This document shows positions 41,404 to 48,428 of a stretch of 64,000 nucleotides of DNA, one piece after another. Numbering within the stretch: the first letter of the stretch is position 1; the number at the start of each line of letters is the position of its first letter. Under the pieces are notes generated by a model that made no database searches, was not told the DNA's origin, and saw nothing but the letters and a program-made list of their open reading frames with translations. The DNA lies in assembly GCA_015062805.1 (NCBI GenBank), contig SUTQ01000001.1, forward strand, positions 62,001 to 126,000, given 5' to 3'. The position numbers and the translations under genes are program-made. The stretch comes from Methanosphaera stadtmanae. GTDB taxonomy: Archaea; Methanobacteriota; Methanobacteria; Methanobacteriales; Methanobacteriaceae.

Positions 41404-42930
41404 ATGCGAATGAAATATCTAGTATTGTTCTTATTATTAATGATATTATCATTAAGTTGTGTTAATGCAGAAAATCAGACAGACGATGCAGTTAATTCAC
41501 AACATACCATTTTACAAGACAGTTTTGATAATGCTGATATGGAATTTGAAAGTGAAACAGTTTTCACTAAAAATTCATCAAAAGAAGATGTTAAGGAATC
41601 TGATGATATTCGAAAAAACAATGTATTATCATTGAATCCTCTTTCAAATATAAAAACTGGTGAAAACGTTCATGTTTCTGGTAGATACGAGGATATTGAC
41701 GGGAATCCAATTTCTAATTCCACAGTAGATTTAATGTTTTATCAGATACCTTATGGTTATAAGTTATTTGAAATTTATTATTCTAAAAGGATTACGACAA
41801 ATGATGAAGGAATCTACAATTTTACATATACACCCGTTATAGCAGGTTCGTTAAGTATTCACGCTTATGCTAAAGGAGTTGGGTTGGTAGCTGTAAAAAA
41901 TGCTACTTTAATATATGTATTGCCTAAAAATACAACAGTTACTTTGACTAATATAACTTATAATATTGACCAAGTAGTCTTAAAAGGTATGTTAAAAGAT
42001 GAAGAGAATCATGCATTGAGATATACTGGAGTAGGAGTACTTTTAGGTCAATATGTGTATGGGGATTATGGTGAAAATGGAAATCTAAAATACACAAAAA
42101 TTTCCAAAAGTTATATTAAAACGGATAAAAATGGATTTTTCACTTTTACTTATAAACCCAAAAATGGTGGAAGATTAAATATTAGTCTTTATTATCCTGG
42201 ATATGGGGATTATGGATTTACAGAAACAATTTTAATGCCTTATATCTTGCCTAAATCTACAGTGGTTTCTTTAGATGCTTTACCCCCAAGAGTAGATGTT
42301 TATCAATGTTTTAACATTACTGGTAAATTTACAGACATTGGTGGAAAAATTTTAAAGAATAAAACTATTGGTATATTGATTGGTAAAACGCCATATAGTA
42401 ATTTAACCAATAATTACATTACAAAGGAATATGTTAAAACTGATCAAAATGGTAACTTTAAATATCAAGTAGTTCCTCGGGATGTTGGGGATATCTATAT
42501 CACAGCTTATTATCCCGGATATCGTTATTATAGATTTAATCTTACAGAGGCTCATGTTAATGTAATCGGTACTCCATTTGTTGAATTTGATTCAATAAGA
42601 GATATCAAATTAGGTGAAGGAATAACTCTTAAAGGTAAATTATTATTTGAAAATGGTTCTGCATTATCCAATGAAAATGTCCATGCTCATTGTTCTCCAG
42701 ATCGTGGTTATTATCATTCAAGTGCTTATGGTGAAGCAACCACTAATTCTGAAGGGGAATTTGTGATATTATGGTTAGAAGAGACATTTGATAATAAAAC
42801 AACCTATTATAAAGAACCATCAGAACTATATTATCCACCTAAAATAGGAGATTATGAATATATAATTGCAGCTGAAAATTATTCAGTATATTACAGGGAG
42901 GCTTTCCCTTCATTTAAAGTAATGGCTTAA
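41404..42930 (+). CDS. Secreted Ig-like repeat surface protein (intact adhesin-like)
   Basis: The 508-residue protein starts with a signal peptide (MKYLVLFLLLMILSLSCVNA, residues 3-22) and a polar Asn/Asp-rich spacer. It then has four modules of about 100-115 residues that share TGxVHVSGRYEDIDGNPI-like, GMLKDEENHALR, TGKFTDIGGKIL and KGKLLFENGSALS starts, TDKNGFFTFTYKP turns and YYPGYGDYGF/YYPGYRYYRF ends. The modules look like carboxypeptidase-regulatory/Ig folds. N-glycosylation sequons are frequent. No C-terminal membrane anchor is seen, so it may stick by its repeats. AAAGGAGGTGA before the ATG is the strongest ribosome site in the window. It differs in repeat sequence from the decayed copies at 12 and 24 kb. 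Confidence 0.85.
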   Translation: MRMKYLVLFLLLMILSLSCVNAENQTDDAVNSQHTILQDSFDNADMEFESETVFTKNSSKEDVKESDDIRKNNVLSLNPLSNIKTGENVHVSGRYEDIDGNPISNSTVDLMFYQIPYGYKLFEIYYSKRITTNDEGIYNFTYTPVIAGSLSIHAYAKGVGLVAVKNATLIYVLPKNTTVTLTNITYNIDQVVLKGMLKDEENHALRYTGVGVLLGQYVYGDYGENGNLKYTKISKSYIKTDKNGFFTFTYKPKNGGRLNISLYYPGYGDYGFTETILMPYILPKSTVVSLDALPPRVDVYQCFNITGKFTDIGGKILKNKTIGILIGKTPYSNLTNNYITKEYVKTDQNGNFKYQVVPRDVGDIYITAYYPGYRYYRFNLTEAHVNVIGTPFVEFDSIRDIKLGEGITLKGKLLFENGSALSNENVHAHCSPDRGYYHSSAYGEATTNSEGEFVILWLEETFDNKTTYYKEPSELYYPPKIGDYEYIIAAENYSVYYREAFPSFKVMA

Positions 42931-44734: not shown

Positions 44735-47374
44735 ATGGTTGCTTTTGAAAGAATAAAATGTGGTATTGAACAATTAGATGAAACCTTGGATAATATTCGG
44801 TTAGGAGATAATGTGGTATGGCAAGTATCAAATCTTAAAGAATTCTCATACTTTGCAGAACCTTTTATCAAACAGGCATTAGAAGACAAGAGAAATTTAG
44901 TATATATAAACTTTGGACTACATGAACCATTAATATCATTAACAGATAAAGATTTAAAGGAACTGGAAGAAATAAAGAATAATAAAGAAATAGAATTTGC
45001 AATGATTGAAAGAAATGGGATAAAAATATACAAAGTCGATCCAATGGAACAGTTTGAATCATTTACATTAGAAGTACATAATATAATTACCAAAGAGGGA
45101 TTTGATGCATTTTATGTATTTGATTGTTTATCGGACTTACAATCAATATGGTCCACTGATTTAATGATGGGAAATTTCTTCAGAGTAACCTGTCCATATT
45201 TATTTATTTTAGATACTGTTGCCTATTTTCCAATATTAAGAGGAAAACATTCTTTCGAAGCAATAGCAAAAATAAGAGAAACAACACAATTATTCCTGGA
45301 TATTTACTCTAATGATGAAGAAGTATATGTACACCCATTAAAAGTATGGAATCGATACTCAAAAGAGATGTTCTTGGGGCACAAATTCAATCCAAAAACA
45401 AATAATGTGACTGCATTAACAGATGGTATGGAAGTAAGCAACTTTTATAAAGTCATAAACTCAAGTAATCGAAATGAACAAAACACGGATAGTTGGGAAA
45501 GATTCTTCACAGCAACCAAACTTCTACATGATACGGGAATTGATGTTTCGGATAAATGTGACTTAATGTGTAATATGATGATGGCCAAAGACAAAAAGGT
45601 ATCTGAAAAAATTAAAGAATACTTTGAATATGAAGATTACATGGCCATATATGACAGATTAGTGGGAAGTGGGATGATTGGAGGAAAAGCTTGTGGAATG
45701 TTGCTGGCACGAAAAATTATAGAAAAAGAAAGGCCAGATATTTTTGAAAACTTTGAACCGGATGACTCTTATTACATAGGTTCTGACTTATTTTACACAT
45801 ATATAGTATCAAATGATTTGTGGAATATTAGAGTTCGACAAAGAACTAAAGAGGGATATTATGAAGCGGGTAAGGAATTGGAAGAAGGATTAAAAAATGG
45901 AACTTTTTCTGATGATATCAAAGACGAATTCCGGAGAATATTGGATTATTATGGGCAAAGTCCAATAATAGTTCGTTCAAGTAGTTTACTTGAAGATGGT
46001 TTTGGAAATGCTTTTGCAGGAAAATATGAATCAGTATTCTGTGTAAACCAAGGAAATCTAGAAGACAGATTAGAAGCTTTCGAAGAAGCTGTTAAAACAG
46101 TTTATGCAAGTATGATGAATATTTCCGCTTTGGAATATAGGGTATTAAATGACTTGGATGATAAGGATGAGCAAATGGGATTGCTTGTACAAAGGGTATC
46201 TGGTTCGTATTATGGGGACTATTTCTTCCCTACAATGGCTGGAGTAGGATTTTCATACAGCCCATATTTACCAACATCTAAAATAGAACAAAATAGGGGG
46301 ATGTTAAGATTGGTTATGGGGTTAGGAACAAAAGCAGTAGACAGAACACAAAACGATTATCCGCGAATAGTAAATCTAAATCGTCCTAATGCAATTGACC
46401 ATCCTGATGTAGCTGAACGACACAGATATTCCCAACATTCACTTGATATACTGGACATAAAAAACATATCAATTCATGAAATACCCGTAGATGAAGGTCT
46501 AAAAGTACTGCCACGTTATGCTAGAAAAAACGTAGTAGAACATGATGTTGATGCAGAACAGAGACTTAGAGAACGAGGACAGAATAGGGAAGTAGTATTT
46601 GTTAACTGTAATGGAATAGTACACAATGATACGTTTATTGAAATGATGAAAGAATTATTAAATACTCTTGAAACAGCATATGATTATCCAGTAGATATAG
46701 AATATACTGTAAATATAGGTCAGGATAATACTTTTGTCGTAAACTTATTGCAATGTCGACCACTGCAAATATCCACAACCAAAAAAGTGATAGAAATTCC
46801 TACAGATTTTGGTGAAACGTATTTCCATATAACTAATTCATCCATGGGTCGTTCACGTAAGGAAGATATAGAAACATTGGTTTATGTTGATCCTCATGAT
46901 TATTACGAATATCCATATGTTAAAAAAAGTTCTATAGCTAGAATAATTGGACAAATCAATGAATATTGTAAAGAAGGAAATAAAAATTCAATGTTGATAG
47001 TGCCTGGTAGAATAGGAACATCCTCTCCTGAATTGGGAATACCTGTATCTTTTGCAGAAATAAGTCAATTTTTGGCAATACTTGAAGAGTCTTATAGTCA
47101 GGTAGGGTATATGCCTGAATTATCTTTTGGAAGTCACATGTTCCAGGATTTAGTTGAAGCTGACATATATTATGGAGCAATTTTTGAAAATGAACAAAGG
47201 GTGGCATTTAATAAAGATTTAATAAAAGGATATCCGAATAAATTATATGATATTAACCCTCAGTTGGATGAAGAATTGTATGATATGATTCATGTTATTG
47301 AATTTAACAATCAAAAATTGGAATTTTATCATGATATGAAAAAAGATGAAAGTAAATGTATTTTGATAAAATAA
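44735..47374 (+). CDS. P-loop-less KaiC/RecA-like domain fused to PEP synthase-type nucleotide-binding domain (PPDK_N)
   Basis: The 879-residue protein starts like a KaiC-family ATPase (IKCGIEQLDETLDNIRLGDNVVWQVSN, residues 7-33). The Walker A loop is absent, and the LVYINFG and FDAFYVFDCLSDLQ strands follow. From about residue 310 it has the PPDK_N/PEP synthase ATP-grasp features GSGMIGGKACGMLLARKII and SPIIVRSSSLLEDGFGNAFAGKYESVF. Further on are LGLGTKAVDRT-like and VNLLQCRPLQ elements. The phosphohistidine and the C-terminal PEP/pyruvate barrel of true PEP synthase are missing. It may be a kinase or transferase acting on another partner, or a regulator. It is monocistronic and followed by T12. 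Confidence 0.8.
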   Translation: MVAFERIKCGIEQLDETLDNIRLGDNVVWQVSNLKEFSYFAEPFIKQALEDKRNLVYINFGLHEPLISLTDKDLKELEEIKNNKEIEFAMIERNGIKIYKVDPMEQFESFTLEVHNIITKEGFDAFYVFDCLSDLQSIWSTDLMMGNFFRVTCPYLFILDTVAYFPILRGKHSFEAIAKIRETTQLFLDIYSNDEEVYVHPLKVWNRYSKEMFLGHKFNPKTNNVTALTDGMEVSNFYKVINSSNRNEQNTDSWERFFTATKLLHDTGIDVSDKCDLMCNMMMAKDKKVSEKIKEYFEYEDYMAIYDRLVGSGMIGGKACGMLLARKIIEKERPDIFENFEPDDSYYIGSDLFYTYIVSNDLWNIRVRQRTKEGYYEAGKELEEGLKNGTFSDDIKDEFRRILDYYGQSPIIVRSSSLLEDGFGNAFAGKYESVFCVNQGNLEDRLEAFEEAVKTVYASMMNISALEYRVLNDLDDKDEQMGLLVQRVSGSYYGDYFFPTMAGVGFSYSPYLPTSKIEQNRGMLRLVMGLGTKAVDRTQNDYPRIVNLNRPNAIDHPDVAERHRYSQHSLDILDIKNISIHEIPVDEGLKVLPRYARKNVVEHDVDAEQRLRERGQNREVVFVNCNGIVHNDTFIEMMKELLNTLETAYDYPVDIEYTVNIGQDNTFVVNLLQCRPLQISTTKKVIEIPTDFGETYFHITNSSMGRSRKEDIETLVYVDPHDYYEYPYVKKSSIARIIGQINEYCKEGNKNSMLIVPGRIGTSSPELGIPVSFAEISQFLAILEESYSQVGYMPELSFGSHMFQDLVEADIYYGAIFENEQRVAFNKDLIKGYPNKLYDINPQLDEELYDMIHVIEFNNQKLEFYHDMKKDESKCILIK

Positions 47375-47390: not shown

Positions 47391-47450
47391 GGATGAAGAA
47401 GGGAGAATACTCATTTTTATTTTTTTAAAAAATTATATATGGTGAATAAT

Positions 47451-48428
47451 ATGTTGAAAATTAGCATAATTGGGGCTTCTGGTACAATTGGAAAAAATGT
47501 AGCATTTAATTTAACAAAAAATGAGGTTATTGATGAAATTGTATTATATTCTAGGAGACATAATTATGAAAAAATTATTGGAGAAGTACTGGATATTTAC
47601 GATGCACTTGTTGCAGAAAATATTGATAGTACATTAATTCCAACCTCTAACATTGAAGATATATCTGGTTCTGATATAGTTCTTCTTACAGCAGGTGTTC
47701 CAAGAAAAAAGAGTTCAACACGACTTAATTTAGCACAAACAAATTCCAAGATAATTAAAAAATATTCTCAATATATTGCAAAATATGCTCCTAATTCAAT
47801 AATATTGGTTGTTACGAACCCTGTTGATGTGATGACTTCAATTGCATTAGAATATTCTGGATTTGAAAAAACTAAGGTAATTGGTTTGGGAAATCATTTA
47901 GATTCACTTAGACTTAAAACAATTTTAGCAAAACATTTCAATATAAATAGTGGTGAAATCCATACTAGGGTTATAGGAGAACATGGTGAACATATGGTTC
48001 CTCTTCTAAGTTCAACTACTATTGGTGGGATTCCATTAAAATACTTTGTAAGTCATAATGAGTTGAATGTTAATGAACTGGTTATTAAACTAAACAATGC
48101 GGCAGAGGATATTATATCCAAAAAGGGTGCAACAGAATATGGTCCCTCTTATGCTATTGGAAATCTTATTTCTACTATTGTTACTGACAGTAGAAAAATA
48201 TTAACTGTTAGTACTTATCTTGAAGGTGAAATTGAAGATGTTTCGGATGTTTGTTTGGGTGTTCCAGTAATTCTTTCTAAAAAAGGTGTTGAACGTGTAG
48301 TTCCTGTTCGCATGAAAGATTATGAAAAAGAAGAATTTTTTGGGGCTGCTAAAGTTGTGAAAGAATGTACTGATAAAATTAGGAATTTATTGGAGGATTA
48401 TTATTTTTTTTTTAAAAAAAGTATTTAG
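47451..48428 (+). CDS. mdh: Malate dehydrogenase (LDH/MDH family)
   Basis: The 325-residue protein oxidises malate or reduces oxaloacetate with NAD(P). It has the Rossmann loop IIGASGTIG (residues 6-14), the substrate loop AGVPRKKSSTR, in which Arg at the discriminating position favours malate over lactate, VTNPVDVMT and the catalytic IGEHGEHMVPL. The start chosen has GGTGA seven bases upstream; an ATG four codons earlier overlaps that site. The last codons run through a T10/A7 homopolymer, giving an odd DYYFFFKKSI tail. The stop codon overlaps the stop of the convergent rnp2 gene. Confidence 0.93.
   Translation: MLKISIIGASGTIGKNVAFNLTKNEVIDEIVLYSRRHNYEKIIGEVLDIYDALVAENIDSTLIPTSNIEDISGSDIVLLTAGVPRKKSSTRLNLAQTNSKIIKKYSQYIAKYAPNSIILVVTNPVDVMTSIALEYSGFEKTKVIGLGNHLDSLRLKTILAKHFNINSGEIHTRVIGEHGEHMVPLLSSTTIGGIPLKYFVSHNELNVNELVIKLNNAAEDIISKKGATEYGPSYAIGNLISTIVTDSRKILTVSTYLEGEIEDVSDVCLGVPVILSKKGVERVVPVRMKDYEKEEFFGAAKVVKECTDKIRNLLEDYYFFFKKSI

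Follow-up and report, generated by a model that had tools for sequence, protein, structure and literature searches.

The window analyzed here, a stretch of 64,000 nucleotides of Methanosphaera stadtmanae contig SUTQ01000001.1, contains an open reading frame in which a PPDK-type ATP-grasp domain lies between long flanks of unannotated sequence, and it raises the question of what such a domain may phosphorylate in a protein where its usual histidine domain is not recognized. The frame (44735 to 47374, + strand) is intact and encodes 879 aa. Its closest orthologue, which is 97% identical and by its name comes from a Methanosphaera MAG, differs by 148 synonymous versus 28 nonsynonymous codons, an excess that places the gene under purifying selection. 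PF01326 (PPDK_N) is the sole Pfam domain recognized in the protein, and a literature search returned nothing on an architecture combining a pseudo-KaiC domain, PPDK_N, and the C-terminal domain described below. A defense function was rejected since PADLOC gave no match; phage families yielded matches below threshold only, and no relatives of the protein were found in the viral contigs searched. According to our analysis, the protein is a real, conserved, and unannotated architecture, of which one domain is possibly new. Its features and the adjacent gene are located in the window as follows.

44735..47374, +, whole gene, 879 aa: pseudo-KaiC, ATP-grasp (PPDK_N), and conserved C-terminal domain
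44735..45484, +, predicted KaiC/FlaH-like N-terminal domain without P-loop, about aa 1 to 250 (Foldseek, hhalign, no Walker A)
44822..44854, +, site of the KaiC Walker A, here QVSNLKEFSYF, aa 30 to 40 (alignment to KaiC; positions 30 to 35 variable)
45107..45133, +, Walker-B-like strand AFYVFDCLS, aa 125 to 133, with D130 invariant (orthologue alignment)
45665..46774, +, PPDK_N ATP-grasp domain, aa 311 to 680 (PF01326 match at aa 314 to 689), with K318, R414, E420-D421, E656, Q673, and R675
46382..46654, +, insertion in the ATP-grasp domain relative to PEP synthase, about aa 550 to 640 (alignment with PEP synthases)
46802..47371, +, undescribed conserved C-terminal domain, aa 690 to 879, ~190 aa, common to the Bacteroidota homologues
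47003..47017, +, PGRxG motif, aa 757 to 761; P757, G758, R759, and G761 do not vary in either archaea or Bacteroidota
47129..47137, +, G[ST]H motif with H801, candidate phospho-acceptor at a predicted helix start (13-protein alignment, AF2 model)
47439..48428, +, malate dehydrogenase-like gene, which follows in the same direction after 64 bp (NF004863 above cut-off, E 8e-104)

A KaiC-like N-terminal domain without P-loop

None of the 45 archaeal orthologues carries a Walker A motif in the first 320 aa, which were scanned for it. Although the P-loop is gone, the GI..LD start is retained together with D130 of the Walker-B-like YVFDCLSDL, the latter invariant in the same 45 proteins. At the sequence level, PF06745 (KaiC) had no match among 29 members even when E values as high as 1 were allowed, no Pfam ATPase matched any member examined, and KaiC was not among the matches of a PDB sequence (profile) search. 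The hhalign comparison with Methanobacteriales KaiC scored 23.9, while 60 column shuffles reached 22.4 at most, so that the profile relation is weak in absolute terms, though colinear and above the shuffles. The full-length AF2 model, built from 10 sequences, is of low confidence (mean pLDDT 47.8), and its ATP-grasp part was left uninterpreted. When the model was compared with the PDB by Foldseek, all of the 50 best matches listed were KaiC or FlaH (best E 4e-3, prob 1.00; matches spanning about 200 to 280 columns), and for this reason we accept a RecA/KaiC fold. The KaiC-like identity of the N-terminus is based on this predicted fold, not on sequence.

An ATP-grasp domain followed by a conserved C-terminal domain

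PF01326 is matched with an E of 9.3e-45 (153.8 bits versus a curated cut-off of 27). The residues K318, R414, E420, D421, E656, Q673, and R675 do not vary among the 45 archaeal orthologues, line up with those of the genome's own PEP synthase and of other PEP synthases, and are also retained in the Bacteroidota homologues, where the insertion at about aa 550 to 640 has a shorter homologous stretch as its counterpart. From family membership, this domain is expected to bind and activate ATP. The PF00391 (PEP-utilizers) swivel domain has no Pfam match anywhere in the 879 aa, nor does the PEP-binding domain (PEP-utilizers_C), and no more than about 190 aa remain after the ATP-grasp domain. Since both canonical domains are missing, the protein is not, by architecture, a PEP synthase.

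The remaining C-terminal sequence constitutes a domain shared by archaea and Bacteroidota (hhalign prob 99.2%), for which no Pfam family and no PDB sequence match were found. Its invariant motifs are PGRxG, LGxPV, and G[ST]HxFQ, and of all histidines, H801 alone is conserved throughout the 13 aligned proteins of the family. An AF2 model of the domain alone (pLDDT 75.6, pTM 0.79), which had ten similar sequences as input and is weak at domain residues 1 to 22 and 119 to 130, places H801 at the opening of a helix at domain residues 130 to 138, with low local confidence immediately before it; Foldseek found no significant match to this model in PDB or BFVD. Positive and shuffle controls led us to reject a hidden swivel domain as far as homology can be detected. 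Against swivel domains, the C-terminus reached an hhalign score of 18.7 and a prob of 1.3%, a score attained by 2 of 80 shuffles, whereas true swivel domains in leave-one-out controls reached scores of 95 to 177 and probs of 98.8 to 99.9%. It is improbable, though conceivable, that the C-terminal domain is a swivel domain diverged to an extreme degree.

These results bear out the domain picture drawn in the original prediction, which had named the KaiC-like N-terminus (upheld here by the fold of a low-confidence model, with no significant sequence match), the loss of its Walker A, the intact ATP-grasp motifs of PPDK_N, and the absence of the swivel and PEP-binding domains. It had overlooked the conserved C-terminal domain, the receiver-like variants in Bacteroidota, and the gltB/gdhA neighborhood, to which we now turn.

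Distribution and homologues

A clear copy is present in 84 of 151 Methanobacteriales genomes, all of them Methanobacteriaceae and concentrated in genera including Methanosphaera and Methanobrevibacter. Presence is patchy (8 of the 20 genomes of the window's genus), two divergent copies show 44 to 45% identity, and sampling the phylum more widely yielded just one further match, a weak one. In one carrier (G035, C40:29418-32053) the gene, directly downstream of gltB, is interrupted by stop codons in frame and by a shift of the frame, and is either a decaying copy or an assembly error. As regards KaiC itself, a strong match to PF06745 (KaiC ATPase) was seen in 16 of 60 sampled Methanobacteriales genomes and in none of those sampled from the genera of the target gene; the PF06745-positive genera are without the gene, apart from weak PPDK_N-only matches.

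Beyond the archaea, homologues with 23 to 25% identity occur in Prevotella, Phocaeicola, and Parabacteroides, annotated merely as "PEP/pyruvate-binding domain-containing protein" (e.g., WP_041525632.1). Homology covers the ATP-grasp domain and all sequence C-terminal of it, and receiver-like domains stand at the N-terminus instead of KaiC. These N-termini scored 27.2 and 28.2 bits against Response_reg, below the curated cut-off of 30.2; the acidic pair (ED), the Asp (D), and the Lys (K) are all present in the second receiver-like stretch, and the first reads ICMP at the expected Asp position. Signaling proteins typically combine an unchanging catalytic core with an input domain that varies between lineages, and the exchange of pseudo-KaiC for receiver-like N-termini suggests a signaling input.

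Gene neighborhood

In 53 of the 84 carriers the gene lies 18 to 158 bp downstream of gltB (glutamate synthase) on the same strand. The operon that precedes it encodes glutamate synthase (Glu_synthase) together with a class-II amidotransferase, a GXGXG protein, and an FrhB/Fe-S protein, and glnA (glutamine synthetase) is near these loci. In a quick tree of the protein, gltB adjacency falls on two separate branches, one of them a single large clade; most of the 53 cases belong to one clade and thus represent few independent events. Among the nonadjacent genomes, gltB is found nearby at distances of 1.1, 7.9, and 8.5 kb, on two more branches of the tree. The 31 carriers without directly adjacent gltB include the window's genome, where gltB is on another contig and the neighbors are purB (divergent) and the malate dehydrogenase-like gene. 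Some archaeal copies are near unrelated genes. In Bacteroidota, where the context comprises three homologues, gdhA (glutamate dehydrogenase) is beside those of Phocaeicola and Parabacteroides and not beside that of Prevotella. The link to glutamate metabolism is therefore recurrent, not universal.

Some further observations concern the surroundings of the gene. Its pairing with the malate dehydrogenase-like gene recurs in two other Methanosphaera genomes (L001 and L003), and in L003 the latter gene separates glnA and the target gene from the genes of glutamate synthase. In Parabacteroides and Phocaeicola (L063:5184-14476; L062:5143-15114), the homologue lies between two glutamate dehydrogenase genes in a segment of about 9 kb, an arrangement conserved in both. 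Elsewhere in the window, 41404 to 42930 (+) encodes a protein of 508 aa whose N-terminus resembles a signal sequence and whose Ig-like stretches are repeated; it is only 73% identical in the neighbor genome L001, otherwise 97% identical, and is a fast-evolving surface protein.

Proposed function and alternative explanations

The reading that we tentatively prefer, and to which we grant somewhat less than an even chance, is that of a cytosolic ATP-dependent regulatory phosphotransferase of glutamate/ammonium metabolism, with H801 as the likely acceptor. The pseudo-KaiC domain, or the receiver-like domains in Bacteroidota, would serve as an input or oligomerization module; the ATP-grasp domain would bind ATP and move its beta-phosphate to a histidine, most likely H801; and the phosphorylated state, or the phosphate passed on, might tune, for example, glutamate synthase or glutamate dehydrogenase. 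A regulator is suggested because the gene often adjoins glutamate-making genes, and a phosphotransferase of this kind by the ATP-grasp residues invariant in archaea and retained in Bacteroidota, by H801 as the sole family-wide histidine, by gltB adjacency on separate branches, by the gdhA neighbors, by the receiver-like inputs, and by the precedent of VadK, discussed below. Against it stand the position of H801 outside any recognizable swivel domain, the 31 carriers (the window's genome among them) without directly adjacent gltB, the small number of independent adjacency events, and the Prevotella homologue, one of the three Bacteroidota proteins examined, which has no gdhA beside it. The function is drawn from context only, and catalysis, the role of H801 as acceptor, regulation, and target alike are inferred. 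A bolder form of this proposal, which we consider doubtful though worth stating, is that the C-terminal domain is a new phosphate-carrying domain (via H801) unrelated to the swivel, which would make the protein a previously unknown signaling kinase, by which ATP and an input from pseudo-KaiC or receiver domains would be coupled to the making of glutamate in archaea as well as in Bacteroidota.

H801 might instead be the usual swivel histidine, in a swivel domain that has diverged past sequence and fold recognition, in which case the protein would be a PPDK relative minus the PEP-binding domain only. Swivel domains follow the order strand, helix, strand, His, helix, strand, and the region of H801 resembles it in the AF2 model (strand 82 to 87, helix 103 to 106, strand 109 to 115, His, helix 130 to 138, strand 142 to 145); moreover, an ATP-grasp domain of this type normally partners a swivel. 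We nevertheless deem this explanation unlikely, since the hhalign score lies within the range of the shuffles and far from that of true swivels, the best local alignment fails to place H801 on the swivel histidine, and no PPDK, PEP synthase, or RPH is among the Foldseek matches listed. A small-molecule phosphotransferase or ligase, in which the ATP-grasp domain would activate a substrate held on the C-terminal domain for a step near glutamate, without a phosphohistidine carrier, accounts for the intact ATP-grasp residues and for the metabolic genes nearby, and the many invariant G, P, R, and H of the C-terminal domain look like those of an active site. Among the relatives of PPDK_N are rifampin phosphotransferase and HpeHI, an aromatic dikinase (PMC4844700, PMC12167813), but these characterized relatives use a histidine swivel domain, which is not detected here, and the input-type N-termini (pseudo-KaiC, receiver) suggest regulation, so that we regard such an enzyme as a minority possibility to be taken seriously.

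A noncatalytic ATP or energy sensor, where ATP would close the ATP-grasp domain and alter how a partner, for instance glutamate synthase, is bound, without phosphate transfer, is in keeping with a KaiC half that is already dead and with the absence of the canonical acceptor domain; it appears improbable, however, in view of catalytic residues and PGRxG and GxH motifs that are invariant at about 25% identity, beyond the likely need of binding. The original prediction had reasoned that a phosphotransferase without its usual acceptor domain must act on another partner. This does not follow, since the invariant histidine of the conserved C-terminal domain could be a built-in acceptor. Phosphorylation of a histidine on a separate protein, e.g., the swivel domain of PEP synthase, is nonetheless conceivable for an ATP-grasp domain without a recognized acceptor, and split PPDK-type enzymes exist, HpeHI being a two-component kinase (PMC12167813). 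The separate phosphohistidine-domain protein that the original prediction suggested looking for across genomes did not emerge from our search. The window's genome has one PEP-utilizers domain, inside a canonical 768-aa PEP synthase, and the 84 carriers hold one such domain or none, with G011 (more than one) as the sole exception; it was undetected in 10 of them, mostly incomplete genomes, although one (G067) is 94% complete. Across the 151 genomes, those with two to four PEP-utilizers domains are mostly without the target gene, and in the loci read the gene is not encoded beside a PEP synthase. The lack of an extra stand-alone swivel (PF00391) protein in carriers argues against a separate partner, an explanation that we rejected and consider very improbable.

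Comparison with known systems and significance

The closest published logic for the proposed regulatory phosphotransferase is that of VadK (Rv1127c) of Mycobacterium tuberculosis, which derives from PPDK, is without the pyruvate domain, autophosphorylates on a histidine, and interacts with enzymes of the pathway encoded near its own gene (PMC13400623). The methanogen protein shares with it the PPDK-type ATP-grasp domain, the lack of a pyruvate/PEP-binding domain, and the proximity of pathway genes. VadK, however, keeps the canonical histidine domain (His422), and because this domain is undetected in the methanogen protein, which adds the pseudo-KaiC and the undescribed C-terminal domain, the latter is not, judged by its domains, a VadK orthologue. 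With PEP synthase and PPDK it has in common PF01326 with the GGK, RSSS, ED, FAG, IE, and QxRP residues, and differs in having no PF00391 swivel or PEP-binding barrel and in its extra N- and C-terminal domains. Rifampin phosphotransferase and HpeHI, in which the ATP-grasp domain is reused for other acceptors with a swivel domain (PMC4844700, PMC12167813), have the same type of ATP-grasp domain and likewise no PEP-binding domain, but both carry a histidine swivel and a substrate domain that is unrelated by sequence search. KaiC and FlaH (ArlH) resemble the N-terminal domain in predicted fold, GI..LD start, and Walker-B-like Asp, whereas Walker A is lost in every methanogen member. In the Bacteroidota protein WP_041525632.1, the ATP-grasp and C-terminal domains are homologous, while two receiver-like N-terminal domains replace KaiC, at 23 to 25% identity.

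The annotation "PEP/pyruvate-binding" hides that such proteins cannot, by their architecture, be PEP synthases. If our reading is true, the dominant gut methanogens, Methanobrevibacter and Methanosphaera, would have recruited a PPDK-type ATP-grasp enzyme to regulate nitrogen assimilation, and gut Bacteroidota would possess a parallel form of it. The family would then define a protein domain not described before, give a dead KaiC domain a role, and present a testable point of control over ammonium assimilation.
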